Source: Collimonas sp. OK607 (GTDB lineage Bacteria > Pseudomonadota > Gammaproteobacteria > Burkholderiales > Burkholderiaceae_D). From it: a DNA stretch of 64,000 nucleotides. The stretch is from contig NZ_FOKF01000012.1 of NCBI RefSeq assembly GCF_900111995.1, positions 1 through 64,000 on the forward strand. The letters are read 5' to 3'. The notes under the pieces were generated by a model. It had not been told where the DNA came from, did no database searches, and saw only the letters and a list, made by a program, of their open reading frames with translations. The position numbers and the translations under genes were made by a program. Positions 9,552 through 27,414 of this stretch are shown here, piece by piece. The stretch's first letter is position 1; each line of letters begins with the position of its first letter.

Positions 9552-10901
9552 ATGAACATGAACATTGTCGACAATGTAGTCGATGACACGCGCGTAAACT
9601 CGTTTCACTTGATGATTATGTTTTGGTGCTCAATGCTCATGCTGTTTGATGGGTACGACCTCGTGATTTACGGTTCTGTTCTTCCAGAACTCATGGCTGA
9701 CTGGAAGCTTCCTGCCGTTACCGCAGGCGTTATCGGTAGCAGCGCTCTCTTCGGAATGATGATAGGCGCATTGTCGCTTGGAAGCTCATCTGACAGATTT
9801 GGACGGCGTCGTGTCATTCTTACGTGTCTCGTCGTCTTTAGTGTCGCGGCGCTTGCTAATGGATTCTGCGAAAACTCTACGCAATTCGTAGTGTGCCGCT
9901 TCTTCACCGGCGTTGGCTTGGGCGGCATGGTACCTAATATCGTCGCGCTCATGACGGAAATGTCTCCGAAAAGAAAGCGAAACATCATGGTGACCGTAAT
10001 GCTGAGTTGCTTCTCAGTTGGCGGTGTCATAGCGGCGGTGATGGGTAAAGTGGTAACACCGACGTTCGGATGGCGTGCCAATTTCCTCATTGCCGGTTTG
10101 TCGTTGCTTACGTTCCCTCTCCTGTTCCGGTGGCTCCCGGAATCGATTACTTTCCTTCTCTCAAACCAGCGTTACGTCGAGGCCGACCGCATTCTGCGCA
10201 AGCTCGCGCCAAGCTATGCCGGGAGCGCGAACTCCCTGGCTGCGTTGTCGCGGGGTGCTGCTTACGAACACAAGCGCTCGCGAGCGGCCCAGCTTTTCGC
10301 GGAAGGACGCGCGCAAGACACGATCCTAATCTGGATAGCCTTTGGCATGTGCATGTTGATGGTTTATGGTTTGAATACCTGGTTACCCAAGCTCATGACG
10401 GCGAGTGGCTACTCTATCGGTTCGAGCCTGACCTTTCTCATTACCCTAAATGTCGGCGCGGTTCTCGGTGGCCTTGTGAGCGGATGGCTGGCTGACAGGT
10501 GGGGCGGGAAGCGTACACTCATCCTATTCTTTCTCGTTGCCACTGTCTCGATTGATCTTCTTGGCTACAAACAGAATCTCGCGATTCTTAATCTCCTTCT
10601 CATGCTTGCGGGAGCAACAACGATTGGCACGCTGTGCATCGTGCACGCGTTCGCCGCACAATTTTATCCTGCAAACATCCGGTCGACCGGAGTTGGCTGG
10701 GCAGCCGCAGCAGGAAGATTCGGAGCGGTTGCAGGGCCCGCGTTGGGAGGCTATCTCGTCAGTCAGAAATTCCCCGTTACTTTTAATTTTCTGGTTTTTG
10801 CAGTTCCAGGTGTGGTGGCGGCGATCGCTATTGTGCTTACTTCGAGACCTGGGAAGCACGTGCCTGTAAATGCAAAAGTGGCGACGGTATCCGCTGAATG
10901 A
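9552..10901 (+). CDS. MFS aromatic acid:H+ symporter (AAHS family)
   Basis: A 449-residue major facilitator with twelve predicted membrane helices. The loop-2 signature region SLGSSSDRFGRRRV and the FDGYDLVIYG segment in helix 1 are typical of the AAHS family (PcaK/BenK/MhpT). Central loop-8 signature: SGWLADRWGGKR. It probably brings mandelate, benzoylformate or benzoate across the inner membrane. Position between mdlA and the benzaldehyde dehydrogenase favours mandelate, but the exact substrate cannot be read from the sequence. The start at 9552 is preceded by CTGGAGAC. Confidence 0.87.
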   Translation: MNMNIVDNVVDDTRVNSFHLMIMFWCSMLMLFDGYDLVIYGSVLPELMADWKLPAVTAGVIGSSALFGMMIGALSLGSSSDRFGRRRVILTCLVVFSVAALANGFCENSTQFVVCRFFTGVGLGGMVPNIVALMTEMSPKRKRNIMVTVMLSCFSVGGVIAAVMGKVVTPTFGWRANFLIAGLSLLTFPLLFRWLPESITFLLSNQRYVEADRILRKLAPSYAGSANSLAALSRGAAYEHKRSRAAQLFAEGRAQDTILIWIAFGMCMLMVYGLNTWLPKLMTASGYSIGSSLTFLITLNVGAVLGGLVSGWLADRWGGKRTLILFFLVATVSIDLLGYKQNLAILNLLLMLAGATTIGTLCIVHAFAAQFYPANIRSTGVGWAAAAGRFGAVAGPALGGYLVSQKFPVTFNFLVFAVPGVVAAIAIVLTSRPGKHVPVNAKVATVSAE

Positions 10902-10943
10902 GCCACCAGCGAGGAGAATTAACATGTTTTTGACGAGGAGTAT

Positions 10944-12407: not shown

Positions 12408-12655
12408 GAGAGTGCTTACAGTCGGTGTTGGTCCAGGGTGCAAAGCTAATGCCTTCTCGTTTATATAAATCTGCGACGTTGGAACTGGCTAGGTGTCTGC
12501 TTCCGCCCAAGCCAGGGTAGCTTGTACCGAGCCATGGTTTTCTCATGCTATGTGCATGTTGGCGCTCGTCACTTTTTTTAACCCCAATTAGCGCTTCCTT
12601 GTACGGTCAACGTTTGGCATTCAAGGCGGCTGCTTTTAGCCATTCAGGGAAAAAA

Positions 12656-14227
12656 ATGAAATTTCCAAAAAGCATGAGCAGGCGTAGTTTTGTATCGAGT
12701 CTAGGTGCCTTGGCAGTTGCTCCAGGGGTAAATGTAGAAGTCTATGCGGACGGGGGAAAACGCTCGTCCAAACCACGTACTATCGGAAAAACTCAGCAGT
12801 TGTCGATGACTGCAACACAAGTCGTCGCAGCAATCGCGGCGGGGCAGCTTTCTGCGGAGACGTATGTTCGAACGCTGCTTGATCGTGCAGACGCACTCGG
12901 TAGTCTGAGAGCCTTCATTACCTTGAATCGTGTTGGGGCGATTGCTGCAGCGCGCGCGGTCGATGCGGCTCGTGCAGCCGGGAAGAAGCTGCCGCGATTG
13001 GCTGGACTTCCCATCGTCGTGAAAGACAATATCAACACAAAAGAGCTACCGACTACCGGCGCGACTCCCGCATTGATGAACTTTCGGCCGACCGCTGACG
13101 CGAATGTGCTGAAAACGCTCGTGAATGCCGGAGCAATTATCATCGGCAAGACAAACATGCATGAACTGGTATTCGGTGTAACGACAACAAATTTTGCGCC
13201 GTTTGCTGGAGTGGCACGCAATCCTTACGACACGAGCCGGATGGTTGGTGGCTCTTCCGGGGGTACCGGCGTTGCAATTGCCGCGCGGATGGCAACCGTT
13301 GGTTTGGGAACGGATACCGGGGGCTCGGTGCGCATCCCTGCCGCGTTGAACGGAATTGCAGGTCTTAGGCCATCAGTCGGAAATGGCGGTGGCGAAAGGC
13401 GTTACGACGGGACGGGGGTTCTTCCGCTGAGTCATACGCGAGATACCGTCGGCCCCATGGGGCGTACGGTGGCCGATGTTGCGCTTCTTGACTCGGTGAT
13501 TTCAGGGGCGGCCATTCCGGCCCCAGCGACGCTCAATGGGCTGCGTTTCGGCGTACCTGCCACATACTGGGACGTGGTTGATGATCAGGTTTTGGAAATC
13601 ATGAATGCAGCCAAGTCTAAGCTCACGGCTGCCGGAGTGACTTTCATTTCTGTTGATTTGCCGAGTATCAGAGGCCTGGGGGAAAAGACGGGTTTCCAGC
13701 TCGTTCTTCATGAAGCAACCATCGACATCCCCGCATATCTCAAGGCTAGCGGTGCAAGCGGCATAACTCTGTCTGATATAGCGGAAAAGATCGCTGACCC
13801 CGATGTTCAGAATGGATTCAAATCGGTAACGTCCGACAGTACAGCAGGAGAGTACTCAGACGCACTTAACGTTTATCGTCCGCAAATGCGTGCGATTTTT
13901 GATATCTACTTTATCGAAAACAGGATAGACGCTATCTTCTTTCCGACCACTCCGGTGCCGGCTGTGCCTATCGATTTTGTGTATGGTTCGTCGACTGTCA
14001 GTGTGAATGGCGGACCCGCAGTGGACGAGTTCGCGACATTCATTCGGAACTGCGACCCAGGGAGTATTGTCGGGATTCCAGGGCTTACGCTCCCGGCAGG
14101 ACTGACGTCAAGGGGGCTGCCGGTAGGTATGGCGCTTGACGGGCCTGTCGGAAGTGACAAAAAGCTCCTGTCGATTGGTTTGGCGATGGAAAAGCTGTTC
14201 GGCGTTTTGCCTGCCCCGAACATCTGA
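12656..14227 (+). CDS. mdlY: mandelamide hydrolase (amidase-signature enzyme) with Tat-like leader
   Basis: Amidase-signature hydrolase that would convert mandelamide to mandelate and ammonia. From 12656 it has 523 residues. The Ser-cisSer-Lys triad is visible: Lys123 in VVKDNIN, Ser200 in GGSSGGTG and Ser224 in GTDTGGS. The C terminus DKKLLSIGLAMEKLFGV resembles the mandelamide hydrolase of P. putida. The N terminus contains SRRSFV followed by a short hydrophobic stretch and an Ala-rich region to about residue 31, which looks like a twin-arginine export signal. The frame is open further upstream (12545), but that part lacks family likeness and 12656 follows AGGGA. It sits 248 bases after mdlD. 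Confidence 0.85.
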   Translation: MKFPKSMSRRSFVSSLGALAVAPGVNVEVYADGGKRSSKPRTIGKTQQLSMTATQVVAAIAAGQLSAETYVRTLLDRADALGSLRAFITLNRVGAIAAARAVDAARAAGKKLPRLAGLPIVVKDNINTKELPTTGATPALMNFRPTADANVLKTLVNAGAIIIGKTNMHELVFGVTTTNFAPFAGVARNPYDTSRMVGGSSGGTGVAIAARMATVGLGTDTGGSVRIPAALNGIAGLRPSVGNGGGERRYDGTGVLPLSHTRDTVGPMGRTVADVALLDSVISGAAIPAPATLNGLRFGVPATYWDVVDDQVLEIMNAAKSKLTAAGVTFISVDLPSIRGLGEKTGFQLVLHEATIDIPAYLKASGASGITLSDIAEKIADPDVQNGFKSVTSDSTAGEYSDALNVYRPQMRAIFDIYFIENRIDAIFFPTTPVPAVPIDFVYGSSTVSVNGGPAVDEFATFIRNCDPGSIVGIPGLTLPAGLTSRGLPVGMALDGPVGSDKKLLSIGLAMEKLFGVLPAPNI

Positions 14228-14606
14228 TCGGAAATTCGAGGCATCGTCTCAGCGAATGCCTTGGATCCGGAGGAGTTCGCAAATCCGTCGTAGTTAGCGG
14301 CATGGCATCCAATATAGATTTCTCCAGTTCCTCTGGTTCCACGCCAAATTTACCTCTTGCGATAAACATACCGCATCCCGGTACGCTCCTCATCTCAGTA
14401 GATAACAGAACTTAAGGAGAGCGTTGTAGGCACCAGACGCACCAACTAGGGGGGATTTAAGTCTAATTAAATGCGAAAACTGACTGAGAGTCGCAAAATA
14501 ATTGACCACAAGACCCAACGGCTATTTGTATATGCCAGGCAGGCGCTGGAACGTAAATTGCATTCATAGAGAATCACGATTCGTGAATAATTTGGAGCTA
14601 TTTGCT
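14228..14606. other. intergenic region before the AraC gene
   Basis: 379 bases with no convincing gene. A weak inverted repeat AGGCAT...ATGCCT lies about 15 bases after the amidase stop and could be part of a terminator, but no T-run follows. The part from 14430 on is AT-rich and probably holds the araC-type promoter. GGAG at 14594-14597 is the ribosome binding site for the start at 14607. Confidence 0.5.
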
Positions 14607-15578
14607 ATGAAGAATCATATTTCGACGGCTTCGCTTCCCGAAGCACAGCGTTACGGATACTGGAGTGAGGTTGTGAATCAGTATTTTGTGAAATTGAACT
14701 GTCGTCTTGAACCATTCACCCCCCTTCGCCCATCCTCAGGGCTTGAAGCGCAGCTGAAACATTCCCCAATGGGGGCTCTCGATTTACTTGAGGTGAAAGC
14801 GCACCCTCAGACCGTTACTCGCTTAGCTCCCCGGCGTAATGACCACGACTATTTTCTTTTCAGCCTCCAGCTCGAAGGCGATTGTGAAATCATCCAGGAC
14901 GATAGAAAAATTACGATCAAGCCTGGTGAAATGGCTCTGTATGACACTCGTAGACCTTATCAGGTGTCGCTACGCGATGAATTTCACATGTGCTCACTTC
15001 GTATCCCCACCGAAATCATGCGCCTGCACTTGCCCAACCCCGAGCGGTTAGTTGCACGCCCTCTGGCGCCTGATACTTTCATTGGAAGAGTATTGGGGAA
15101 TTTAGTGCGTAGTCTATTCGATGATCAGAATAACTTGTCGGCAGATCAGGAGAGCGTCATGGCAAGGTCCGTGATAGAAGTGCTGTCTTTAGGGCTGCAG
15201 TCGCTCAATGCGCACGAGGGATTAGTGCAAACATCCCGTCTTTGTCAATTCCATCTGGATCGAATCAAACACGCAATTGAATGCAACCTGGGTGATCCGG
15301 ATCTTGGTGTGGAGCAGCTCTCGCGAGATCTCAAAATGTCGCAGAGTTCCATTCACAGGGCATTCGAAAGCGAGCCATTTACAGTTACTGAATATATTTG
15401 GATCCAACGACTTGAGATCTGTAAGAAGGCACTAGCCAATCCTCGACTTAACGGCCGCAGCATAAGTGAAATTGCTTACAACTGGGGTTTCGCCAGTAAT
15501 GCTCACTTCAGCCGAGCATTCAAGCGCTATACAGGCCAAAACCCTAGAGATTTCAAAGCCAGTTCACCTAGAGTATAA
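14607..15578 (+). CDS. AraC family transcriptional regulator
   Basis: A 323-residue regulator with an N-terminal AraC-type ligand-binding domain (about 1-190, including the cupin-like segment KITIKPGEMALYDTRRPY). Two C-terminal HTH motifs follow (LSRDLKMSQSSIHRAF and ISEIAYNWGFASNAHFSRAFKRYTG). The class includes FeaR-like activators of aromatic aldehyde and nitrile metabolism. An earlier start at 14502 is possible but has no ribosome site. It lies between the amidase and the outer-membrane/nitrilase genes, so it likely activates part of this locus (inference). Confidence 0.87.
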   Translation: MKNHISTASLPEAQRYGYWSEVVNQYFVKLNCRLEPFTPLRPSSGLEAQLKHSPMGALDLLEVKAHPQTVTRLAPRRNDHDYFLFSLQLEGDCEIIQDDRKITIKPGEMALYDTRRPYQVSLRDEFHMCSLRIPTEIMRLHLPNPERLVARPLAPDTFIGRVLGNLVRSLFDDQNNLSADQESVMARSVIEVLSLGLQSLNAHEGLVQTSRLCQFHLDRIKHAIECNLGDPDLGVEQLSRDLKMSQSSIHRAFESEPFTVTEYIWIQRLEICKKALANPRLNGRSISEIAYNWGFASNAHFSRAFKRYTGQNPRDFKASSPRV

Positions 15579-16189
15579 AATCTTGATGTCATATTCGTTG
15601 AGGTAGCACAACCAAAGACCGGACATTTCCACAATTTCATGTCAGGAAACGACTCATATATTGCTTATCGAAAGGTGATTCACCGATGCGTGGATGGTCC
15701 GCTCCGAGAAAGCAAATTTAACGTTCGTCAAATATAATTTCACACTGCGGATCAAGAGACCTATAACGGTTTGCGCGCTCGACGTGCGCATTGCGTCTTG
15801 TTATTGCGCTCGGCTTTTACGCTTATTTAGTCTTCATCAGCTTCCAGATCGTCCAGCAATTCCAATTGCACGGGTTGGTTGTCAGGCTTCGCGGAAGTAA
15901 CACCATGCCGTGGACGTCCATCAGTAGCCATTCGCGCGAAAGACTAAATTGCGGAACTCCCTATTCAATGATTTTTTCGGCGGATTTTTCTAGCCCGGTA
16001 GTGGGTTACGAGATATTCGAATATTCGATTCTTGAACAATTTGTATGGGAGTTCAGGTCAATTTCCCCGGGTGCCGGCGGTTTAGAATTTATTCGTAATG
16101 GGACTCACTGAATATCAACGAGTTCATTATTTTTTTGAATTTATCCGCTAAATATATCAACACGTATAAAAGATCATTGGGAGTGAATC
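15579..16189. other. AT-rich intergenic region without a supported gene
   Basis: 611 bases, clearly lower in GC than the mdl genes before it. A 106-codon frame at 15791-16111 with a hydrophobic N terminus is open, but it starts at a non-ATG codon without a ribosome site, resembles no family I know, and uses rare codons. I do not call it. The last 100 bases are AT-rich and probably contain the promoter of the gene at 16190. Confidence 0.45.
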
Positions 16190-17098
16190 ATGCGTACTTT
16201 ATGTTCTTTGAATTTCCGAACGGATAGCCTAAGTCTGGTCAAAAAATTATGCGTAACGGTTACGGTCGCTTGTAGCACCGCGGCACAGGCCGGCGTTGTA
16301 AGCACGGCTCCCGGAGATAACGAGCCATTGCCAGCTGGTACTGAGTTGGGATTGCTGTATTACCAGCATGCCGAGCGCGATAGGGTGAATGTGAATGGCC
16401 ATACCGTAACTCAGAATTTTGGGTTGGATAGCGATATCGGCATTGCCCGTTTTGTACATTGGACCACTCTGGGTGGCTTTACAGTAACCCCTCAAATAAT
16501 TTTGCCGTTTGGCCATTTGAAGCTCAGCGCTACCGGTGACCAGACATCCACCGGGTTCGGCGATCCAATGATTGGTAGCGCTGTGTGGTTGCTGAATGAT
16601 ACGGATAAAGAACGCTATTTCAGTATTGTAGGATTCATAGGCGTGCCCGCTGGCAGTTATGACGCGGCCAAAGCTGGCATGAACCTCGGCGAGAATCGGT
16701 GGAAAGGCGTAGTCGAAGTGAATTGGGTTCAGGCGCTGGTCAGCAAGCGGCTTTACGGTGAAATTACGTTTGAATATGATACTTTTGGTAAGAATAATAA
16801 CTACGCAGGAGCGGCATTACGTCAGGATAATATTTACGAGCTTCAGACGCACTTACGCTACGTGATGGATCCTGCCAATCAGGTCGGATTGAGTTACTAC
16901 CATACCATCGGTGGCGAAAACCATTTGAATGGTATCGCTCAGCAAGACACCTTGAAAACCGATCGGTATATGGTGACATGGACCCACTTTCTTACACCTC
17001 GACTTCAATTCCAAGCGCAAGCCGGTCAGGACCTATACGTTCGAAATGGTACGCAAGAGAAGTTTCGACTGAACTTACGTTTGGCCCGAGCATTTTGA
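16190..17098 (+). CDS. outer-membrane protein of the phenol-degradation MetA type
   Basis: A 302-residue exported protein with a signal peptide (about 1-34, ending ACSTAAQA) and an alternating-residue beta-strand pattern that ends in the aromatic C terminus LARAF, typical of outer-membrane barrels. The pattern GTELGLLYYQH, then a series of strands ending near FLTPRLQFQAQAGQD, fits the transporter family PF13557 found in many aromatic and hydrocarbon operons. It could let the nitrile or mandelate cross the outer membrane. It lies 98 bases before the nitrilase on the same strand. Confidence 0.8.
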   Translation: MRTLCSLNFRTDSLSLVKKLCVTVTVACSTAAQAGVVSTAPGDNEPLPAGTELGLLYYQHAERDRVNVNGHTVTQNFGLDSDIGIARFVHWTTLGGFTVTPQIILPFGHLKLSATGDQTSTGFGDPMIGSAVWLLNDTDKERYFSIVGFIGVPAGSYDAAKAGMNLGENRWKGVVEVNWVQALVSKRLYGEITFEYDTFGKNNNYAGAALRQDNIYELQTHLRYVMDPANQVGLSYYHTIGGENHLNGIAQQDTLKTDRYMVTWTHFLTPRLQFQAQAGQDLYVRNGTQEKFRLNLRLARAF

Positions 17099-17195
17099 AC
17101 GATGTGTATGAGTTTATGGCGAAGTCAAATCTGTAAAGCCGGAAATTGCTGCGTCAAATTAACAATCAATGTGTCACAAATTATTTTTTGGAGTC

Positions 17196-18233
17196 ATGAT
17201 GCCAACCATTGCAAAAACGAAATATAAAGTGGCTGCCGTTCAAGCGGCACCCGAATTCCTAGATCTTGAAAAAGGGGTATTGAAAGCAATCAAGTTGATT
17301 GAAGATGCCGCCCGAGAGGGAGCTTCGTTGATCGCTTTCCCTGAAGTATGGTTGCCTGGCTACCCTTGGTGGATTTGGCTGGACTCACCGGCTTGGGGCA
17401 TGCAGTTCGTACAGCGATATTTCGAAAACGCGTTGGTCGTTGGCAGCGAGCCTTTCGAGCGCCTGTGTGCTGCTGCTGCACGCTGCAAAATTCATGTGGT
17501 TCTGGGTTTCTGCGAGCGTGACGGCGGAACTTTATACTTGGCCCAAGCAATAATTGACGATGCAGGCAAGGTCATCGCAACTCGACGCAAGCTCAAGCCA
17601 ACACACGTTGAACGGGCGGTTTTTGGCGAAGGTGACGGCAGTGATTTGGCGGTCCACGATTCCGCATTGGGCCGCATCGGCGCTCTGTGTTGCGCCGAGC
17701 ACATACAGCCCCTGTCGAAATACGCCATGTACTCTCAACACGAACAGATACATGTTGCGGCTTGGCCAAGCTTCTCTGTATATCGCGGTGCTGCGTTCCA
17801 GCTGAGCGCTGCCGCTAACAATGCAGCTAGTCAGGTTTATGCGTTGGAAGGCCAGTGTTTTGTGCTAGCCCCCTGCGCCACTGTGTCAAAAGAAATGCTC
17901 GATATGTTGATCGACAATCCTGCCAAAGCGCCGCTCCTCTTGGAAGGTGGAGGTTACGCGATGATCTACGGCCCGGATGGTTCACCGCTATGTGAGCCAA
18001 TTCCGGAGAAGGAGGAGGGATTGCTTTATGCGGATGTGGATCTTGGAGTGATAGGTGTGGCTAAGGCCGCATATGATCCGGTCGGGCATTATTCAAGACC
18101 TGATGTCGTTCGTCTGCTCTTGAACCGTAAGCCATCGTCTTGCGTACAGGGCTTTGAGCAGGAGTCGTTGCCGGAGGTACTCGGACCGTCGAATATTGAC
18201 GCTGACGATGAGAGCGTCTTTGATGTCAAATGA
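17196..18233 (+). CDS. arylacetonitrilase (mandelonitrile hydrolase)
   Basis: Carbon-nitrogen hydrolase converting arylacetonitriles such as mandelonitrile to the acid and ammonia; some members also release amide. From 17196 (GGAG directly upstream) it has 345 residues. The catalytic triad is visible: Glu50 in [12 protein letters not shown], Lys132 in [11 protein letters not shown] and Cys166 in CCAEHIQPL. The whole chain resembles the Pseudomonas fluorescens EBC191 arylacetonitrilase. An alanine follows the catalytic Cys, as in that enzyme, which is known to make both mandelate and mandelamide. This gives a reason for the amidase at 12.7 kb. The last about 30 residues are variable. Confidence 0.93.
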
Positions 18234-18239
18234 TCATTG

Positions 18240-18650
18240 GCATTGACACTATCAATCCTCTGATACACCGCTGGACGTGCGCCAGGACACGGCATTTACC
18301 ATCATCGCCAGAACCGATGCCGCCTGAGCCAGCGGCCAAGTGGAAGATGCGATGATCCGCCTGGAGGCGTTTTCCCGGGCAGGTTGGTGATGTGACGGCC
18401 GGCTTCAGTGCTGCTCAACTTGCTGCAGTGCGGGCAAGGATTCCCGGCAAGGTGGTGTTGCTGAATGAGTCGCCAGAGACAATTGTGCGGGAGCATGCAG
18501 CGGCGCCGGTCTGGAGATTTGTTGCAGCCTTTGTCTGTATGCCGGGACTGCAATGCAGGTAGTCGACGAGGTCGAGGCTCTGCTCGATTATCAGGATTTT
18601 AACCGGTGCGGCCAGCAGTACGGCATGGTGGGATAGTGTTGCCAGAGCAT
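18240..18650 (+). pseudogene. decayed isocitrate-lyase/PEP-mutase superfamily gene
   Basis: No intact frame is present, but pieces in different plus-strand frames resemble one family in order. The stretch DTAFTIIARTDAA, which ends at a stop, is followed by ASGQVEDAMIRLEAFSRAGW with another stop. Next come ARIPGKVVLLNE near 18450 and an AMQVVDEVEALLDYQDFN segment near 18550. IARTDA followed by a helix with AGAD-like residues is typical of the phosphoenolpyruvate mutase / isocitrate lyase family. At least two stops and one frame change make it non-functional. It marks the junction between the nitrilase locus and the cio genes. Confidence 0.5.
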
Positions 18651-18696
18651 ACCGCGACGGTTGGCCGTCAGGCATCGGGCCATGCCGTCGCGCAAG

Positions 18697-18831
18697 CAAT
18701 CTGATCTGCTTTTTATTCTCTGTACTGAATCTGTTCTTTCTGCGTAGGCTGCCTACACTGTCTAGACTATCTGCAATCCCATATCGGGAGAAACGAAAAT
18801 GTTTGGATTTAACGCACTTGAACTGGCCCGT
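18697..18831 (+). repeat. cio leader repeat, copy A
   Basis: Direct repeat shared with 21467-21602. The core (CAATCTGATC, then ATTCTCTGTACTGAATCTG) and the stretch around the start codon (GGGAGAAAC, ATG, TGGATTT) match. The middle has diverged, and the core-to-ATG distance is almost equal (102 versus 103 bases). This copy carries the cioA promoter and the first codons. It contains a direct repeat TCTGT-N6-TCTGT (11-base period) and the palindrome GTAGGCTGCCTAC at 18744-18756. Confidence 0.75.
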
Positions 18832-20235
18832 ATCCAGTTCGGATTTACGATTTCATTTCATATTATCTTCCCCGCAATTACCATCGGCCTGGCCAGCTAC
18901 CTGACCGTTCTCGAGGGCTGCTGGCTGAAAACCAATAGAGAGGTCTATCGCGACCTGTATCATTTCTGGTCAAAGATTTTCGCTGTCAATTTCGGCATGG
19001 GAGTGGTGTCTGGCCTGGTGATGGCATACCAGTTTGGCACCAACTGGAGTTTTTTTTCACAGTTCGCCGGCAGTGTCACAGGGCCGTTGCTGACCTATGA
19101 AGTCTTGACGGCGTTCTTCCTGGAAGCGGGATTTCTCGGCGTGATGCTGTTCGGCTGGAATAAAGTCGGCCCCACTTTGCACTTTGTCTCGACCGCCATG
19201 GTTGCCCTGGGCACGCTGATTTCCGCAACCTGGATCACCGCCTCCAACAGCTGGATGCAAACTCCTCAAGGTTACGAAATCGTTGATGGACGGGTGATCC
19301 CGACCGATTGGTTGCAGGTTATCTTTAACCCGTCCTTTCCTTACCGGCTGGCGCATATGAGTGTTGCGGCGTTTCTTGCCACGGCGTTGCTGGTGTGCGG
19401 CTCGGCTGCCTGGCATTTGTTGCGCGGCAACGATAATCCGGCTATCCGGAAGATGATGGCGATGGGGCTGTGGATGATACTGCTGGTGGCGCCTATCCAG
19501 GCCTCGATCGGTGATTTTCATGGGCTGAATACGTTGAAGCATCAACCCGCAAAGATCGCTGCAATCGAAGGCCACTGGGAAAACCGTGGCGACGACGGGA
19601 CACCATTGATTTTGTTCGGCTGGCCGGACATGAGGCGCGAAGAAACGCGTTTCAAGATTGAAATTCCGCGTCTGGGAGGCTTGATTCTGACCCACTCCTG
19701 GGAAGGAAAAATTCCCGGCTTGAAAGAATTTTCGCCGCAAGATCGACCCAACTCGACGATAGTATTCTGGTCCTTCCGCATCATGGTAGGGCTGGGAATG
19801 TTGATGATCTGGCTAGGGCTATGGGGCGCATGGCTGCGTTGGCGCGGCAAGCTGTGGCAGAGTAAATTATTCTTGCGCTTCGCCTTGCTGATGGCCCCCT
19901 CCGGCCTGATCGCAATGCTCGCGGGCTGGTATACCACCGAGATCGGCCGCCAGCCGTGGATTATTTACGGCTTGCTGAGGACTGCTGATGCGGTATCGCC
20001 GCATGGCGCCGCCGAACTCGGCACCACGCTGATCATGTTCGTACTGGTCTATTTTCTGGTGTTCGGTACCGGTATCGGCTATCTGTTTCGACTGATCCGC
20101 GGCGGCCCACTGACTCACGAAGGGCAACATCCGGAGACGGGGGGGCCGGGGCAGGAGCGGCAACCGATGCGGCCAATGTCGGCTGCGAGCGAGTCGGTCC
20201 CGGCAGACACTGCTGTTGCAGAGATAAGGAACTGA
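18799..20235 (+). CDS. cioA: cyanide-insensitive cytochrome bd-type oxidase subunit I
   Basis: Quinol oxidase subunit I, 478 residues, in the inner membrane with multiple helices. Haem ligands are at the expected places: His21 (FHIIFPA) and His186 (RLAHMSV). Glu101 and Glu109 lie in YEVLTAFFLEAGFLG. The quinol loop is short, and the helix spacing resembles CioA rather than E. coli CydA, so cyanide-insensitive oxygen reduction is expected. The C-terminal 45 residues are Pro/Glu/Gly-rich and cytoplasmic. cioB starts one base after the stop. This is the respiratory shield one would expect beside an enzyme set that handles mandelonitrile. Confidence 0.9.
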   Translation: MFGFNALELARIQFGFTISFHIIFPAITIGLASYLTVLEGCWLKTNREVYRDLYHFWSKIFAVNFGMGVVSGLVMAYQFGTNWSFFSQFAGSVTGPLLTYEVLTAFFLEAGFLGVMLFGWNKVGPTLHFVSTAMVALGTLISATWITASNSWMQTPQGYEIVDGRVIPTDWLQVIFNPSFPYRLAHMSVAAFLATALLVCGSAAWHLLRGNDNPAIRKMMAMGLWMILLVAPIQASIGDFHGLNTLKHQPAKIAAIEGHWENRGDDGTPLILFGWPDMRREETRFKIEIPRLGGLILTHSWEGKIPGLKEFSPQDRPNSTIVFWSFRIMVGLGMLMIWLGLWGAWLRWRGKLWQSKLFLRFALLMAPSGLIAMLAGWYTTEIGRQPWIIYGLLRTADAVSPHGAAELGTTLIMFVLVYFLVFGTGIGYLFRLIRGGPLTHEGQHPETGGPGQERQPMRPMSAASESVPADTAVAEIRN

Positions 20236-20236
20236 T

Positions 20237-21244
20237 ATGGGTATCGATCTAGCGCTGATCTGGGCAGTGATTATTCTGTTCAGCATCATGATGTATGTGG
20301 TGATGGACGGCTTCGATCTTGGCATCGGCATCCTGTATCCGTTTTTCAGGGACAAGGAGGATCGCGACGTCATGATGAACACGGTCGCGCCGGTATGGGA
20401 TGGCAACGAAACCTGGCTGGTGCTGGGCGGAGCAGGGCTGCTGGCGGCTTTTCCGCTCGCCTATGCAGTGGTGCTGAGCGCATTTTACCTGCCGTTGATC
20501 TTCATGCTGACAGGGCTGATCTTTCGTGGCGTGGCATTTGAATTCCGTTTCAAAGCGCGCGAACGCGAACGGCATTACTGGGACAAGGCATTTATCGGCG
20601 GATCGATCACGGCCACTTTTTTCCAGGGCGTGACGCTGGGCGCCTATCTGCAGGGAATACCGATTGCCAACCGCGCTTATGCTGGCGGTCCGCTGGACTG
20701 GATATCCGCGTTTTCGATTTTTACCGGGCTGGGCCTGGTGGTGGCGTACGCCTTGCTCGGCAGCACCTGGCTCATCATGAAAACCGAGGGAGGTTTGCAG
20801 CGCCATGCTTACGTCATCACGCGGCGACTGGTCTGGGCTTTGCTGCTGGTGATTGCCGCCATCAGTGTCTGGACTCCGCTGCTTGACGAACGGATTGGGC
20901 AACGCTGGTTTAGTCTGCCGAACCTGTTCTGGTTTGCACCGGTACCCCTGTTGGTGGTAGCGAGTAGTTATTTCCTGCTGCGGTCGCTCAAAAGCAGGTG
21001 GCAGGCAGCGCCGTTTGTCTTCACGCTGATGTTGATTTTTCTCGGTTATAGCGGACTGGGCATCAGCCTGTGGCCAAACATCATTCCACCCGACGTATCG
21101 ATATGGGATGCTGCGTCGCCGCCGCAAAGCCTGGGCTTTACGTTGGTGGGTGCGCTACTCATCATTCCGGTCATCTTGATGTACACAGTATGGGCGTACT
21201 ACGTTTTCAGAGGCAAGGTGAAGCACGGCGAGGGTTATCACTGA
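20237..21244 (+). CDS. cioB: cytochrome bd-type oxidase subunit II
   Basis: Partner subunit of CioA, 335 residues, with about eight membrane helices. MMYVVMDGFDLGIGILYPF near the N terminus and WDGNETWLVLGGAGLLAAFP are CydB/CioB signatures. The start codon is one base after the cioA stop and its own stop overlaps the next start (TGATG), so translation is coupled through cioA, cioB and the small protein. Confidence 0.92.
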   Translation: MGIDLALIWAVIILFSIMMYVVMDGFDLGIGILYPFFRDKEDRDVMMNTVAPVWDGNETWLVLGGAGLLAAFPLAYAVVLSAFYLPLIFMLTGLIFRGVAFEFRFKARERERHYWDKAFIGGSITATFFQGVTLGAYLQGIPIANRAYAGGPLDWISAFSIFTGLGLVVAYALLGSTWLIMKTEGGLQRHAYVITRRLVWALLLVIAAISVWTPLLDERIGQRWFSLPNLFWFAPVPLLVVASSYFLLRSLKSRWQAAPFVFTLMLIFLGYSGLGISLWPNIIPPDVSIWDAASPPQSLGFTLVGALLIIPVILMYTVWAYYVFRGKVKHGEGYH

Positions 21245-21387
21245 TGCGCGCATATCCTGGACAAGACGGTTCGCGCTGGAAACGGTTCGGCTGGCTGGTA
21301 TTGTTGTGGGCCTTGAGCGTCGGCACGCTTGGCGCGGTTGCCTATCTGCTGCGCTTGTTCATGCATGCCGCCGGCCTGAGTCGCTGA
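21244..21387 (+). CDS. small cyd/cio operon membrane protein (DUF2474)
   Basis: A 47-residue protein with a charged N terminus (MRAYPGQDGSRWKRFGW) and a single hydrophobic helix from about 17 to 41. It begins at the overlapping TGATG of the cioB stop. Position, size and the conserved W-K-R-F-GWL segment fit the DUF2474 family that occurs after cioB, and it probably acts like CydX, stabilising the oxidase. The start is fixed by the overlap with cioB. Confidence 0.8.
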   Translation: MRAYPGQDGSRWKRFGWLVLLWALSVGTLGAVAYLLRLFMHAAGLSR

Positions 21388-21466
21388 CACGACTTGCATG
21401 CGCGCTCCCGGGTGGCGCGATGCGCCGGACCGGGGTTGAGCAACCAGAACAGTGCGGCGAGCCAGA

Positions 21467-21602
21467 CAATCTGATCCGATTTTTATTCTCTGTACTGAAT
21501 CTGTTTTTTATTGCCAGACTTGGTTACTCTGCGGGAATCGCCACCAGTCCCGCAGTGGGAGAAACACGAATGTCTGGATTTCACGTCACTGAATTTGCCC
21601 GC
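21467..21602 (+). repeat. cio leader repeat, copy B, in front of the cytochrome c gene
   Basis: Second copy of the leader described at 18697-18831. The core ATTCTCTGTACTGAATCTG is identical, and the start region reads GGGAGAAACACGA-ATG-TCTGGATTT. The first codons of the cytochrome gene (MSGFHVTEFAR) are therefore a diverged copy of the first codons of cioA (MFGFNALELAR). A hairpin-capable inverted repeat CTGCGGGA...TCCCGCAG occupies 21529-21555 in place of the GTAGGC palindrome of copy A. Confidence 0.75.
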
Positions 21603-22385
21603 GCTCCGTCCGGTGTGTCCGGTATGCAATCTGAAGAAGCGCGTTTCAAATTTGGAATTCCATGCCTGCACAAGCTGATTCGACGCTCAAGGTTCCTGGT
21701 CTTTCTGGCCGTGGCCTTGTTTGCCGGCACTGCCCATACGGCAGAGGTCGACGCCGGCACGGTTCCCGATACCATCAAGCAGCGCCTCACCGCATGTACC
21801 GCCTGCCATGGCGAACAAGGGCGCGCCACCAACGATGGCTACTACCCGCGCATCGCCGGCAAACCGGCAGGCTATCTCTACAACCAGTTGCATAATTTTC
21901 GCGAAGGACGCCGTCGGTATCCGATGATGACCTATCTGGTCGATCACCTGTCCGACACCTATCTGCAGGAAATCGCCCAGTATTTCGCAGATCAGCATCC
22001 GCCTTACCCGGCACCGCAACCGTTCGATCAGTCGAGCGCAACCCGCGAGCGTGGTGAAATCCTGGTCAACAAGGGTGATCCTGGCAAGAAGATTCTAGCC
22101 TGTATCGCCTGCCATGGCAGCGCCATGACAGGCGTCATGCCGGCGACCCCGGGTTTGCTTGGCCTGCCGCGCGATTACCTGGTCGGACAGATAGGCGCAT
22201 GGAAAAACGGCGCACGGCACGCCAAGGCGCCCGATTGCATGGCGCAGGTTGTGCAACGCTTGAGTGCAGAGGATATCGGTGCGGTGTCGGCATGGCTGGC
22301 TGCGCAGCCGGTCCCAGCCGACGCCGTCGCAGTTGCTCCAACCTCGGTCAAATTGCCGCTCGCTTGCGGCAGTGTCCCCAACTGA
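21570..22385 (+). CDS. di-haem cytochrome c (c4-like)
   Basis: Exported di-haem cytochrome of 271 residues. Haem motifs are CTACH (Cys76-His80) and CIACH (Cys178-His182). A hydrophobic stretch at about 41-57 ends in AHTA, typical of a signal peptide, so the first about 35 residues form an unusual extension that was contributed by the duplicated cioA leader. A shorter start at 21624 (MQSEEARF) would be in frame too. It lies 182 bases after the small cio protein and 16 bases before a tri-haem cytochrome, making a set in which periplasmic cytochromes sit beside a quinol oxidase. Confidence 0.82.
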   Translation: MSGFHVTEFARAPSGVSGMQSEEARFKFGIPCLHKLIRRSRFLVFLAVALFAGTAHTAEVDAGTVPDTIKQRLTACTACHGEQGRATNDGYYPRIAGKPAGYLYNQLHNFREGRRRYPMMTYLVDHLSDTYLQEIAQYFADQHPPYPAPQPFDQSSATRERGEILVNKGDPGKKILACIACHGSAMTGVMPATPGLLGLPRDYLVGQIGAWKNGARHAKAPDCMAQVVQRLSAEDIGAVSAWLAAQPVPADAVAVAPTSVKLPLACGSVPN

Positions 22386-22401
22386 TGAAGCGGAGCCAAG
22401 A

Positions 22402-23700
22402 ATGAAACGGATATTCATGTGGGCAGCCGGCGCTCTTGTGTTGCTGATCGCGGCGGCAGTCGGGGTAGTGGCAATGCTCAACGTCGACGATCGCGGCGAG
22501 CAGCCGCCGGCGGCTTCTGCTGCAGCAGTTGCAACTGCGGAGCAGATTGCGCACGGCGCCTATCTGGTGCGTACGGGTGATTGCATGGCTTGCCATACAG
22601 CGCGCGGCGGCAAGGAACTGGCGGGAGGGCGCGCGATACAGACGCCGTTCGGCGCCGTCTATTCGCCGAATGTCACACCGGACAAGGAAACCGGTATAGG
22701 CACCTGGTCGGCCGATGATTTCTGGCGCGCGCTGCATAACGGTAAATCGAAAGACGGCAGCTTGCTGTACCCGGCTTTCCCGTACACGAACTACACCAAG
22801 GTCACGCGTGCCGATGCCGATGCGATGTTTGCCTATTTGCAGAGCGTGCCGCCGGTACAGCAAAAGAATCTGGAACACGGTTTGCGTTTTCCCTATAACA
22901 ACCGGTTCCTGCTCTATGGCTGGCGCGCCCTGTATTTCCGGCCTGGCGTGTATCAGCCTGAGACGCAGCAATCGGTCGAGTGGAATCGTGGCGCTTACCT
23001 GGTGCAAGGGCTGGGCCACTGCAGTGCTTGCCACACCACTCGCAATGCACTCGGCGGCAGCGATCTGAAAGCGGAGCTGGGAGGGGGCTTGATCCCGGTG
23101 GTGAACTGGTATGCGCCGTCGCTGACATCGGATGAAGAAATCGGTCTTGGCGACTGGGATATCCAGCACATCAGCGCATTGCTGAAAGACGGCGTCTCGC
23201 CGCGCGGCACAGTGTTGGGGCCGATGGCGGAGGTGGTGGGCGCCAGCTTGCAGCATCTGAGCGATGCGGATGTCCGCGCGATGGCGGTTTACCTGAAATC
23301 GTTGCCGCGCCAGAAGGAAGCGCCGGCAGAAAAAGAGCGCGCCAGTCCTGACCAGGTGGCAAGCGCGCTGGATCTGGGCCAGAAGATCTACAAGAACCAT
23401 TGCGTGGATTGCCACCAGGCTTCCGGCAAAGGCGTATGGCCGGCTTACCCGCCGCTGGCAAGCAATCACGCGATCACCATGTCGGCGCCGGTGAATGCGA
23501 TCAGGGTGGTGTTGAACGGCGGCTTTGCACCGAGTACGGCTGCCAATCCGCGCCCTTACGGCATGCCGCCATACGGTCCGACGCTGACCGATAGCGAAGT
23601 GGCTGCGGTCGTCTCGTATATCCGCAACAGCTGGGGTAACAAGGCGCCGATTGTGAGCGCATCAGAAGTTAGCCGCTATCGCTCGGTGCCGTTGGATTAG
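22402..23700 (+). CDS. tri-haem cytochrome c (alcohol/gluconate dehydrogenase cytochrome subunit type)
   Basis: A 432-residue protein with an N-terminal membrane helix (about 5-25). Three haem motifs are present: CMACH (61-65), CSACH (207-211) and CVDCH (334-338). Size and spacing fit the cytochrome subunit that carries electrons from periplasmic membrane-bound dehydrogenases (gluconate 2-dehydrogenase, PQQ alcohol dehydrogenase) to ubiquinone. No dehydrogenase subunit is found next to it, so its partner is unknown. The start at 22402 has a matching ribosome site (GGAGCC) and gives a clean anchor. An earlier in-frame start would add Arg-rich residues. Confidence 0.85.
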   Translation: MKRIFMWAAGALVLLIAAAVGVVAMLNVDDRGEQPPAASAAAVATAEQIAHGAYLVRTGDCMACHTARGGKELAGGRAIQTPFGAVYSPNVTPDKETGIGTWSADDFWRALHNGKSKDGSLLYPAFPYTNYTKVTRADADAMFAYLQSVPPVQQKNLEHGLRFPYNNRFLLYGWRALYFRPGVYQPETQQSVEWNRGAYLVQGLGHCSACHTTRNALGGSDLKAELGGGLIPVVNWYAPSLTSDEEIGLGDWDIQHISALLKDGVSPRGTVLGPMAEVVGASLQHLSDADVRAMAVYLKSLPRQKEAPAEKERASPDQVASALDLGQKIYKNHCVDCHQASGKGVWPAYPPLASNHAITMSAPVNAIRVVLNGGFAPSTAANPRPYGMPPYGPTLTDSEVAAVVSYIRNSWGNKAPIVSASEVSRYRSVPLD

Positions 23701-23739
23701 CTCCGAGGTTTTCGAGTCGGCGGAGTGGCATCAGGTAGA

Positions 23740-23794: not shown

Positions 23795-24013
23795 ATGCGT
23801 AAATCAAATCTGGACGAATCAGGGAAGCGCTCCTTCTTTGCCACCTTGGGTGCAGTATTCTGGTCCTTCGTCGGTCTGCGCCGCAGGGCGGACTATGAAA
23901 AAGACGCTACATCGTTCAATCCCGCGTACGTGATCGGCGCAGCCCTGGTCGGTGTGGCATTGCTTATTGCGGCCTTGCTTGTCATCGTCAAGATGGTGGT
24001 TGCGGGCGGATAG
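23795..24013 (+). CDS. DUF2970 domain protein
   Basis: A 72-residue protein with a soluble N-terminal half (MRKSNLDESGKRSFFATLGAVFWSFVGLRRR) and one C-terminal membrane helix (about 47-68). The layout and the AVFWSFVGLRRR segment fit DUF2970, a betaproteobacterial family of unknown role often near oxidase genes. The start at 23795 follows AAAGG. It stands between the cytochromes and the MocR gene. Confidence 0.75.
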   Translation: MRKSNLDESGKRSFFATLGAVFWSFVGLRRRADYEKDATSFNPAYVIGAALVGVALLIAALLVIVKMVVAGG

Positions 24014-24106: not shown

Positions 24107-25543
24107 ATGAAACGTTACGAAGCTCTGGCGCACGAAATATCGCAATCGATACTGGATGGAGTGTTGCTACCCGGCGACCGGTTGCCGTCGGTGCGCCAGG
24201 CCAGCAGCAGTCGAGAGGTCAGCCCCTCAACCGTGTTCCAGGCGTATTACCTGCTGGAAGCGCAAGGCTTGATTGTGGCCCGGGAGCGGTCGGGCTATTA
24301 CGTGGCGGCTAGCGCAAGGCAATTGCCGCCGGAGCCGGAAACCATGTCGTTGCCGGATCAGGACTCGGTACAGCCCGATACCAGCGAGCGCGTGTTTGAA
24401 GTGCTCGAAACCACGATGACCAGAGATGTGGTGCCGCTCGGCTCGGCTTTCCCGAGCCCCTTGCTGTTTCCGATGAAACGGCTGGCGCGCATGATGTCGG
24501 TCAGCGTGCAAAATCTCGATCCGTGGAGCTCGGTGGACGATCTCACGCCCGGTAACGCCCGGCTGCGCAGGCAAATCGCGTTGCGTTATCTGATTGATGG
24601 CCTGCATATCCACACCGACGATATCGTGGTCACCAACGGCGCACTGGAGGCGCTTAATCTGTGTCTGATGGCGGTGACGCGTCCCGGCGACGCAGTATTG
24701 GTGGAATCGCCTACTTTCTATGCTGCCTTGCAGTCGATCGAGCGCAATGGCTTGCGGGCGATCGAAGTGCCGACGCATCCGCGCGAAGGCATCGATCTGG
24801 CGGCGATGGAACGAGCGCTGGAGCGCTACCAGCCTGCTGCATGCTGGCTGATGACTAATTTCCAGAATCCGCTGGGTAGCCTGATGTCCGATGAAAAGAA
24901 ACAAGCGCTGGTCAAATTGCTGGCGCGTTACCAGGTGCCGCTGATTGAGGACGACGTATATGGCGAGCTGTACTTTGGCGATAGGCGGCCGACACCGGCC
25001 AAGGCTTTCGATACCGAAGGCTTGGTGATGCACTGTTCATCGTTTTCCAAATGCTTGGCGCCAGGTTATCGCGTCGGCTGGACCGCTCCCGGTCGCTTTG
25101 CGCGCGCCGTGGCACGCCATAAGCTGACCACCACGCTGACTACGTCGGCCCCGGTTCAAGGGGCGCTGGCGCTCTATCTGGAGAAAGGCGGCTACGATCG
25201 CCATCTGCGTCAGTTGCGGCAAGCGCTGGCTGCGCAACAAGTGGTGTTCATGGAAGCAGTGGCGCGCCATTTTCCGCAAGGGACTCGGGTGACCCGTCCC
25301 AAGGGCGGTTATTTCCTGTGGCTGGAGTTGCCGGACGGCGTGGACGCGCTACGTGTACACAAGCATGCGCTGTCGCAGGGCATCAGCGTCGCGCCCGGGC
25401 CGATCTTTTCCGCGCAGCCGGCCTTCGGCAACTGCCTGCGCCTGAATTACGGCCACCTTTGGGATGCCCGCGTCGAGGCTGCGCTGGCGACACTGGGACG
25501 TATCGTTGCCGGCGAGATGACGCGCCAGACAATGCAGCCGTAA
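24107..25543 (+). CDS. MocR-type (GntR HTH + aminotransferase) regulator
   Basis: A 478-residue fusion. Residues about 1-75 form a GntR winged HTH (LPGDRLPSVRQASSSREVSPSTVFQAYYLLEAQGL). The rest is a fold-type I aminotransferase domain, with the PLP lysine in SSFSKCLAPGYRVGW and NFQNPLG. Proteins of this class (PdxR, GabR, TauR) use PLP or an amine/amino acid as effector and bind direct repeats. An open extension upstream to 24074 exists, but 24107 gives the normal N terminus. It could control the cio/cytochrome genes, in whose leaders a direct repeat TCTGT-N6-TCTGT occurs, or other genes. A rho-independent terminator follows. Confidence 0.87.
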   Translation: MKRYEALAHEISQSILDGVLLPGDRLPSVRQASSSREVSPSTVFQAYYLLEAQGLIVARERSGYYVAASARQLPPEPETMSLPDQDSVQPDTSERVFEVLETTMTRDVVPLGSAFPSPLLFPMKRLARMMSVSVQNLDPWSSVDDLTPGNARLRRQIALRYLIDGLHIHTDDIVVTNGALEALNLCLMAVTRPGDAVLVESPTFYAALQSIERNGLRAIEVPTHPREGIDLAAMERALERYQPAACWLMTNFQNPLGSLMSDEKKQALVKLLARYQVPLIEDDVYGELYFGDRRPTPAKAFDTEGLVMHCSSFSKCLAPGYRVGWTAPGRFARAVARHKLTTTLTTSAPVQGALALYLEKGGYDRHLRQLRQALAAQQVVFMEAVARHFPQGTRVTRPKGGYFLWLELPDGVDALRVHKHALSQGISVAPGPIFSAQPAFGNCLRLNYGHLWDARVEAALATLGRIVAGEMTRQTMQP

Positions 25544-25553
25544 AATTCTGCAG

Positions 25554-25578
25554 CCGTATCGCTGATACGGTTTTTTTT
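25554..25578 (+). terminator. rho-independent terminator after the MocR gene
   Basis: Perfect 7-base stem CCGTATC / GATACGG with loop GCT, followed by eight T residues, 10 bases after the mocR stop. It separates the gene from the siroheme reductase. Confidence 0.9.
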
Positions 25579-25680
25579 GCATGCCCTGATGCTGTTCTGG
25601 CGGCCTGGTCTGGTGTACCTTGAGCATACTTCTCAATGCGCTTGCGGCTTGCTGCAAGGCTTCATCAAAAAGGATGCTCC

Positions 25681-27414
25681 ATGTACATTTATGACGAGGT
25701 CGATCAGACTCTGGTTGAACAGCGGGTGACCCAGTTCAAGGATCAGACCAGGCGTTTTCTGGCAGGGCAACTGAGTGAGGATGAGTTTCGCGTCCTGCGC
25801 CTGCAAAATGGCTTGTACATCCAGCGCCATGCGCCGATGCTGCGGGTGGCGATTCCTTACGGCATGCTGGTATCGACGCAGTTGCGCATGCTGGCCCACG
25901 TTGCGCGGCGTTGGGATAAGGGCTACGGCCATTTCAGCACGCGCCAGAATATGCAGTTCAACTGGCCGCGCCTGGAAGATGTGCCGCAGATATTGGCTGA
26001 ACTGGCGACGGTACAGATGCATGCGATCCAGACCAGCGGAAATTGTATTCGTAATACGACAACGGACCATTTCGCCGGCGTCGCACCGGATGAGCTGGTG
26101 AATCCGTTGATCTGGTGCGAAATCATCCGGCAATGGTCGATGTTGCATCCCGAGTTCGCATTCTTGCCGCGCAAATTCAAGATTGCCGTCAGCGGCGCCC
26201 GCACCGACCGGGCGGCGGTCGGCGTGCACGATATCGGTTTGCAGGCGGCGGTGCAGGATAATGTGATCGGTTTTCGCGTATGGGTGGGCGGCGGCATGGG
26301 GCGTACGCCGATTGCCGGCAAGTTAATCAATTCTTTCGTGGCCTGGCCTGATCTGCTGACCTATCTGCAAGCGATACTGCGGGTCTACAACTTGCACGGC
26401 CGGCGCGACAACAAATACAAGGCACGGATTAAGATACTGGTGAAAGATCTGAGCCCGGAAGTGTTTGCACAGCAGGTAGATGAGCAATGGCAAGTGATCC
26501 GCGGCGGTCCGGATACGGTCGGAGAGGCCTTCGTCGCTGGCGTCGCGGGACGCTTCACCTGGCCGCGCTATGAGGACAGCGCTGTCGGTGAGGTTGACGT
26601 CAGCGCCGGCTATGCAGCGACCAACCAAGCCTTCGCGCGTTGGCTAAAAACCAACGTCCATCCGCATAAAATGGCAGGCTACGCCGCGGTAACCGTTTCG
26701 CTGAAAGCAACCGGCGTGCCACCGGGCGATATCACGGCAGATCAAATGGATGCTGTGGCCGATCTGGCCGAATCCTATAGTTTCAGCGAACTACGGGTGT
26801 CGCACGAACAAAACCTGATTCTGACCGATGTGCGCCGGCGAGACTTGTTTGCGCTTTGGCAGCAACTCAATATTCTCAATCTGGCGACGCCGAATATCGG
26901 TTTGATAACTAATATCATCGCTTGCCCCGGTGGCGATTTCTGCGCTCTCGCCAATGCCGTTTCGATACCGGTCGCGGCGGCCATACAGCGTCGTTTCGAC
27001 GATCTTGACTATGTGCATGACATCGGTGAACTGGATCTCAATTTATCCGGCTGCATCAATGCCTGCGGCCATCACCATATAGGGCACATCGGCATCCTCG
27101 GCGTCGACAAGGCGGGCGAGGAATGGTATCAGATCACGATAGGCGGCCGTCAGAACGGCGGCGCGCGACTGGCGACCGACGTTGAATCCGGGCGCGATGG
27201 CGGCGTAGCAATAGGGCGCATCATCGGCCCGTCGTTCGCCCGCGATCAGGTTCCCGACGTCGTGCATCGTCTGATAGAAACTTATCTACAATTGCGTCAC
27301 GGCGAAGCGGAGCGCTTCATCGACGTCGTTGACCGTGTCGGGATAGAGCCGTTCAAGCAGGACGTTTACGGCGATCCTCGCTTTGCCAAGACGGTAATGC
27401 TCGCTGGGGGGTAA
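25681..27414 (+). CDS. nitrite/sulfite reductase hemoprotein (siroheme and 4Fe-4S)
   Basis: A 577-residue ferredoxin-type sulfite/nitrite reductase haemoprotein. It has the usual two repeats, each with a ferredoxin-like half (residues about 50-130 and 330-410). The siroheme-[4Fe-4S] cysteines are CPGGDFC and CINAC, with HHIGHIG after the latter. This is the CysI class of Betaproteobacteria. The usual neighbours (DUF934 gene, cysH, cysD/cysN) are absent, so it stands alone and nitrite as substrate is possible. The start at 25681 gives MYIYDEVDQTL, which fits homologues. A longer frame begins at 25636. Confidence 0.82.
   Translation: MYIYDEVDQTLVEQRVTQFKDQTRRFLAGQLSEDEFRVLRLQNGLYIQRHAPMLRVAIPYGMLVSTQLRMLAHVARRWDKGYGHFSTRQNMQFNWPRLEDVPQILAELATVQMHAIQTSGNCIRNTTTDHFAGVAPDELVNPLIWCEIIRQWSMLHPEFAFLPRKFKIAVSGARTDRAAVGVHDIGLQAAVQDNVIGFRVWVGGGMGRTPIAGKLINSFVAWPDLLTYLQAILRVYNLHGRRDNKYKARIKILVKDLSPEVFAQQVDEQWQVIRGGPDTVGEAFVAGVAGRFTWPRYEDSAVGEVDVSAGYAATNQAFARWLKTNVHPHKMAGYAAVTVSLKATGVPPGDITADQMDAVADLAESYSFSELRVSHEQNLILTDVRRRDLFALWQQLNILNLATPNIGLITNIIACPGGDFCALANAVSIPVAAAIQRRFDDLDYVHDIGELDLNLSGCINACGHHHIGHIGILGVDKAGEEWYQITIGGRQNGGARLATDVESGRDGGVAIGRIIGPSFARDQVPDVVHRLIETYLQLRHGEAERFIDVVDRVGIEPFKQDVYGDPRFAKTVMLAGG

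Follow-up and report, generated by a model that had tools for sequence, protein, structure and literature searches.

The cio locus and its duplicated cioA blocks

The 64,000-nucleotide stretch of Collimonas sp. OK607 analyzed here (contig NZ_FOKF01000012.1; hereafter the window, to which all coordinates refer) carries genes for a cytochrome bd oxidase of the cyanide-insensitive (Cio) type, followed by a pair of cytochrome c genes, a MocR-type regulator gene, and a reductase gene. The host shares its family with Janthinobacterium sp. LM6, and genomes and loci used for comparison are labeled G and L, respectively. The genes cioA (18799..20235; PF01654, 568.9 bits) and cioB (20237..21244; PF02322, 341.8 bits) encode cytochrome bd subunits I and II, and a DUF2474 small open reading frame (ORF) lies 3' of cioB (21244..21387; PF10617, 59.4 bits). 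CioA is 75% identical to its relative in Pseudomonas aeruginosa PA7, and cyanide resistance is predicted from sequence. Next come a di-haem cytochrome c gene (21570..22385; PF00034), a tri-haem cytochrome c gene as the second gene of the pair (22402..23700; PF00034), an MpaR-like MocR/GntR regulator with an aminotransferase-like domain (24107..25543; PF00392, PF00155), and a NirA-like sirohaem nitrite/sulfite reductase (25681..27414; PF01077, PF03460). All genes listed here, from a nitrilase 5' of cioA through the NirA-like gene, are on the plus strand. A core sequence stands before cioA (18697..18739) and again before the cytochrome pair (21467..21509), and a weaker form occurs past the regulator stop, ahead of the NirA-like gene (25558..25600); anticipating the interpretation below, we refer to these as operators 1, 2, and 3, all likewise on the plus strand.

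The initial annotation had proposed that the cioA leader, including its first codons, is duplicated before the di-haem cytochrome gene. Alignment of the two regions upholds this for the core and the start codons, and the copied material extends further than a leader. Operators 1 and 2 are identical at 40 of 43 bases; counted from the first base of the core, the ATG follows after 102 bases at cioA (18697 to 18799) and 103 at the cytochrome gene (21467 to 21570), as first described; and the first residues, MFGFNALELAR and MSGFHVTEFAR, each preceded by GGGAGAAAC, agree at 6 of 11 positions. Outside the core, likeness exceeds chance at two places, contrary to the condition first named as refuting the duplication. 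The first (21557..21601) comprises a ribosome site (GGGAG, 21557-21561), the ATG at 21570, and cioA codons 1-11: the ribosome site with the first 32 coding bases scores 50, the next-best start among 331 mechanically called ORFs scores 21, and none of 20,000 shuffles matched the 32 coding bases alone as well. The second is an internal piece of cioA, from codon 281 onward (19639..19691), copied with its frame kept to 21633..21684; its score of 47 compares with a top value of 34 in 2,000 shuffles and of 35 for the best other ORF in the pool (the query's own gene excluded), and at the protein level GVSGMQSEEARFKFGIPCLHKLIR and GWPDMRREETRFKIEIPRLGGLIL are identical at 12 of 24 positions. A direct-repeat search returned the same three blocks as its top three families (57, 43, and 36 nucleotides, the 36-nucleotide block at 81% identity), in equal order in both copies. 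The duplication of cioA pieces is real and exceeds a leader; what was donated is a partial copy of cioA from which a large stretch is deleted in frame.

Leaders that serve the same regulator could also resemble each other without any duplication, each operator having been inherited with its own gene, and the cytochrome pair does have an operator of its own in other genera, among them that of G031, a genome of the same family with the same gene order of cioA, cioB, and cytochromes. We consider this origin highly improbable here. The 40 of 43 identities between operators 1 and 2 surpass what any other operator pair reaches (377 pairs; maximum 36, median 25), and in the poorly conserved middle of the operator the two agree at 15 of 16 positions, where one other pair reaches 14. 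The start codons and the internal cioA piece were copied too, and the genome's own native cytochrome pair elsewhere has no operator. Moreover, among 87 cioA loci (a set that includes two copies from the window and counts G031 twice), the window's own cioA is the best fit to both coding pieces (50 and 47), the next-best loci scoring 32 and 44 and coming from different genomes. In G146, DNA resembling the start codons was dropped as a chance match, as it is surrounded by unrelated genes.

A chimeric gene at the head of a genus-native cytochrome pair

The cytochrome block itself (21692..23702, plus strand) is native to the genus. Over 21692-23700 its DNA identities are 95.0% to G011, 93.6% to G007, and 92.5% to G002, and a second copy in the same genome, on contig 39 (L033, 7320-9342), reaches 92.4%. 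The window block shares 24 sites exclusively with G011 and 3 exclusively with the second copy, and as the block is nearer to both G011 and G007 than to the contig 39 pair, the latter was rejected as its direct source. Four comparisons for each of the two genes gave ratios of nonsynonymous to synonymous substitution rates (dN/dS) of 0.04-0.14 (0.09 for the tri-haem gene against G011), with synonymous rates (dS) of 0.13-0.29, and the window pair is therefore kept under purifying selection. Six relatives from the genus were compared for the point at which likeness to native sequence sets in: it lies at 21684-21692 in four, at 21705 in G014, and at 21731 in G002. For the own second copy, whose di-haem cytochrome starts MSILSVRPATGRAG..., it lies at 21730. 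The G031 cio locus carries a different cytochrome pair (61-64% identical) 3' of cioAB, so that the window has a genus-native pair, behind a copied cioA start, in the position of the cio-type pair of G031.

As read from the sequence, then, 21570..22385 is an in-frame chimera of a cioA-derived N-terminus and a di-haem cytochrome c. The gain of a ribosome site and an N-terminal extension, part of the first description, is borne out at the sequence level, and the length given there, 35 residues, is to be revised to about 38-40, measured to the onset of native likeness. All 26 homologues that could be parsed from 30 loci (L024, L026, L027, and L031 were unparsed) have the cytochrome without the cioA-like extension, their best protein score being 29 vs 46 for cioA, and an old family trait was rejected as its origin on this count. 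The chimera was not seen in any other genome examined. The second pair on contig 39 is free of the operator; it thereby provides a natural control for the captured pair.

In promoter capture by duplication, the copied 5' end of one gene ends up before another. Such a capture, as initially proposed, is the best reading of the present sequences and is supported by the best fit of the window's own cioA, the likeness of the operator pair, the restriction of the extension to the window gene among the parsed homologues, and the lack of an operator at the own second copy of the pair. The window differs from promoter capture in general in that the donor also contributed codons and an internal piece, and in that the copy carries a recognizable operator. 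Putative promoters, assigned by eye, overlap both cores: one for cioA at 18731..18759 (-35 CTGTTC, 18731-18736; 17-bp spacer; -10 TACACT, 18754-18759) and one for the cytochrome pair at 21501..21530 (-35 CTGTTT, 21501-21506; 18-bp spacer; -10 TACTCT, 21525-21530), both on the plus strand.

The extension is probably translated from the start at 21570. It could be argued instead that the copied cioA start is an untranslated leader and that translation begins internally, for instance at Met-19 (21624), so that no extension is made; native homologues do have shorter N-termini, and the extension has no visible function. This seems unlikely, as the cioA ribosome site and the ATG at 21570 were copied together, the frame is open through to the signal peptide, and by eye no ribosome site is visible 5' of 21624.

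The age of the events is less easily placed. About one fifth of the bases of the copied coding pieces differ from cioA, which is near the dS of 0.13-0.29 between the pair and its relatives, and copying and fusion may therefore be of similar age. Several observations count against the reading as a fused cioA copy. Over the 45-base spacer from the core to the ribosome site the two copies are only marginally alike (151 of 5,000 shuffles did as well), so that the copy is either old or had its spacer replaced; as to age, this low likeness points to an earlier date of copying. The cytochrome block, by contrast, differs from that of G011 by just 5%, and fusion and copying are therefore possibly separate events. 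At the protein level, the extension scores 46 against cioA and the best of 1,000 shuffles 45, a thin difference. The 67 bases 5' of the core show no likeness between the copies (3,022 of 5,000 shuffles as good), and neither this flank nor the spacer lends support to the duplication.

The unequal divergence of leader (about 73% identity in a gapped match) and cytochrome block (95%) might also be explained if a whole second cio operon had decayed, leaving the chimera as its last remnant, and its cytochrome pair had later been swapped for the native one by recombination. The pieces do come from two places of cioA in the right order and frame. The direct-repeat listing shows no cioB repeat between 21467 and 21690, however, and partial copying takes fewer steps; we hold a decayed operon to be possible but rather doubtful, and prefer the partial copy.

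The core as a candidate operator

The core looks like more than a promoter, namely, the operator of a regulator. A sequence model of it (R1; 22 training sites, none from the window), which was preceded by a position matrix scan of loci, gives three sites with an expectation value (E) below 0.001 in the 5.37 Mb of the host genome. These are operator 1 (4.4e-7; also a matrix site), operator 2 (8.5e-7), and operator 3 (1.1e-4, at 25562-25598), the next match having an E of about 1. They precede cioA, the cytochrome pair, and the NirA-like gene, and all three lie near the MocR-type regulator. When 294 genomes of the family were searched with the leader DNA, core matches beyond the window came from G161, G166, and G202, where they adjoin regulators of the same type or presumed targets of these.

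Across 195 family genomes, sequence searches found an R1 match (E of 0.01 or less) in 47 and an MpaR-like protein in 56 (55 at 65% identity or more and a partial match at 74% in G035). The two co-occur: the operator match is present in 43 of the 56 genomes with the protein vs 4 of the 139 without it, 135 genomes having neither, and without the host genome and the 14 genomes used in training the counts are 28 of 41 vs 4 of 139. At 29 operator loci outside the window, the next gene on the same strand encodes a di-haem cytochrome in eight (four genera), mpaR in seven, cioA in five (all one genus), ccoG in three, and nirA in three, with no same-strand gene within 700 bp in the remaining three. The matrix scan also places sites 5' of cioA in Janthinobacterium, Achromobacter, Cupriavidus, and Variovorax. 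Since the pair adjoins an operator in four other genera, the capture may have given the native pair a link that it has elsewhere. The same operator also precedes ccoG-like genes in other family members (L149 6130, L150 6016, L192, L194, and L196), with the regulator divergent from the ccoG-like gene in L150 and L196.

The operators share a two-part structure. In all 28 compared, CTG stands at the same two positions, 30 bp apart, a spacing that is partly built in for sites found by ungapped scanning (the PA7 sites described below came from the model search). The first half-site reads CTGAT in 23 and the second CTGTT in 24, both in 22, and the full ATCTGAT is present in 17. ATCTGAT is exact in operator 1 (18699-18705, with CTGAT at 18701 and CTGTT at 18731) and operator 2 (21469-21475), and operator 3 reads CGCTGAT.

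A link with a characterized system is suggested by P. aeruginosa. The window regulator is 61% identical to a PA7 protein that adjoins nirA- and ccoG-like genes, and the two have an SFSK stretch in common; the NirA-like protein and its homologue from the mpaR cluster of PA7 are 60% identical. Operator 3 has the NirA-like gene at 25681 as its candidate target, nirA being a member of the MpaR cluster (mpaR, ccoG, ccoN4, nirA) as well. In the PA7 genome, R1 has only three matches at E up to 1 (4.8e-4, 8.3e-4, and 0.49), all in the mpaR cluster, and each holds ATCTGAT with CTGTT 30 bp downstream; nirA and ccoG were identified there by similarity, and ccoN4 is presumed for the third match from the published gene order. 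ATCTGAT is reported to be required for ccoN4 expression and to lie 61-62 bp upstream of the start in three promoters, full expression depending on MpaR and cyanide, with a cyanide-pyridoxal phosphate adduct hypothesized as the signal (PMC10790758). In the window, ATCTGAT (18699-18705) would be about 62 bp 5' of the start predicted by eye from TACACT. The second half-site is present in both the window and PA7, and the portion of PMC10790758 consulted does not describe it as a binding site. MocR proteins are expected often to recognize spaced direct repeats, and their targets include cytochromes and cytochrome oxidases (PMC5320631). By analogy, it is most likely that the regulator shared by these operators is MpaR-like and cyanide responsive. 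As the copied piece carries a likely binding site, cioAB and the cytochrome pair are probably controlled together by this one regulator.

A number of results run counter to this assignment and should be set beside it. The R1 scores in the window are not independent, because the training sites were first found through likeness to the window core, some of them with a matrix that contained both window leaders. The association ignores kinship and takes both searches as drawing the same 195 genomes, and the Fisher value is not a true probability, because related genomes are not independent. Thirteen of the 56 regulator genomes have no operator match and four genomes have a match and no regulator, and at 12 of 30 regulator loci there is no matrix site within 1.5 kb. 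Not every half-site reads CTGAT or CTGTT. The third PA7 match, at E of 0.49, would be insufficient alone, and none of the three PA7 matches lies at cioA. In the matrix scan, cioA of G031, G032, and L063 lacks a good operator, and that of G059 has a weak site only (16.9, some 420 bp away); a CTGAT...CTGTT candidate noticed by eye 5' of G031 cioA was left unused, as it is absent from the matrix sites of the G031 locus, L041 (second-best score 0.4). Judged by these sites, cioA is not universally a target.

The sign of regulation is a further matter on which the analogies diverge. A mocR mutant of Pseudomonas pseudoalcaligenes CECT5344 is described as constitutive for the cio proteins, on the basis of unpublished data of those authors, and its MocR would thus likely be a repressor, opposite in sign to MpaR and at odds with our assignment (PMC8567248). 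It can therefore be hypothesized that the window regulator, too, represses its targets until cyanide or a nitrile lifts the block, instead of activating them. We consider this a plausible minority view; MpaR itself activates.

Related loci, surroundings, and meaning

When these observations are combined, we think it probable that a partial cioA copy was fused to the genus-native cytochrome pair and that the copied core serves the MpaR-like regulator as its operator, giving a local regulon of three units. The copy would have taken the operator, promoter, ribosome site, and cioA codons 1-11, followed, across an in-frame deletion, by cioA sequence from about codon 275-281 onward; fusion to the native pair would then have created the chimeric first gene and placed the pair under a cioA promoter. 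The core would be the operator of the MocR regulator encoded just downstream (24107-25543), and the three operators would unite cioAB, the cytochrome pair, and the NirA-like gene in one local regulon. By analogy with MpaR, cyanide or a product of it, perhaps the cyanide-pyridoxal phosphate adduct, would switch the regulator. The regulator would bind both CTG half-sites, which are spaced 30 bp and of which the second overlaps the -35 box, and so alter transcription of all three units jointly.

Known systems resemble the window in part. The MpaR cluster of P. aeruginosa has in common with it the MocR regulator, the NirA-like reductase, and ATCTGAT before targets, which in the window would likewise lie about 62 bp from a predicted start, and the window adds cioAB and the di- and tri-haem cytochrome pair to the NirA-like gene. 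The CECT5344 cio cluster likewise unites mocR, a sulfite reductase-like gene, cioAB, and a nitrilase gene; it differs in including amino acid metabolism genes and in its MocR being a putative repressor, and neither a cytochrome pair nor a duplicated leader is mentioned in the portions of the two reports at hand (PMC11049912, PMC8567248). Closest in layout is the G031 cio locus, which has the same order of cioA, cioB, di-haem, and tri-haem cytochrome genes with an MpaR-like gene adjoining. Its cytochrome gene is preceded by a separate operator, the encoded N-terminus is different, and no cioA pieces were seen 5' of the gene. The G031 regulator is divergent from cioA (L041 7557-14046) and the window regulator is downstream, so that the locus must have been rearranged in one of the two.

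The cio locus looks acquired, since close matches to cioA and the regulator are missing from the genus genomes searched: in 14 other genomes cioA found only matches of 33-35% identity, and of 11 searched with the regulator (E up to 1e-100), 10 gave matches of only 46-49% identity and one gave none. A plasmid search for the locus returned 62 records, none reaching 80% cover, and the 20 matches listed are all weak, 18 of them confined to genes annotated as cydB. Within the locus, a DUF2970 ORF (23795-24013) separates the tri-haem cytochrome gene from the regulator. Upstream of cioA, 9552-18233 encodes an MFS transporter, an aldehyde dehydrogenase, an amidase, an AraC-type regulator, a PF13557 phenol degradation-type protein, and a nitrilase (17190-18233, below the cutoff for the Nit6803 type), and may form, next to the cyanide-type cluster, a cluster for the breakdown of nitriles or amides. 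The 460-base stretch between the nitrilase gene and cioA (18234-18690) has no evident gene and no match in 60 relatives and may be debris from insertion of the locus; a DNA search with 18230-18690 found the own genome only among these relatives and is thus uninformative on origin.

The MpaR type of regulon is already known, and the elements for which we found no account are the chimera, cioAB and the cytochrome pair as targets, and the two-part operator. Among the entries listed, a literature search gave no account of the operator 5' of cioA or of this cytochrome pair, although the supplementary tables of PMC5320631, a source consulted in part, may list the regulon. On a wider claim, that the pair moved in one step into an MpaR-like cyanide regulon and that MpaR-type operators are generally built of two CTG half-sites in direct orientation (CTGAT and CTGTT in most cases), spaced exactly 30 bp, with the second on the -35 box, we are evenly divided. 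If true, the half-site layout would explain how the operator is read by a head-to-tail MocR dimer, such operators would control cytochromes, cioAB, ccoG, and nirA across beta- and gammaproteobacteria, and the capture would have re-created for this pair the regulatory connection seen with it in other genera within the family.

The locus presents a readable case of regulatory rewiring, in which a single genome suffices to identify the donor promoter, the copied codons, the unregulated native sister pair, and the likely regulator. For the Janthinobacterium family, the sequences predict a cyanide-type regulon with a two-part operator, and this prediction ties cioAB and the di- and tri-haem cytochrome pair to it.

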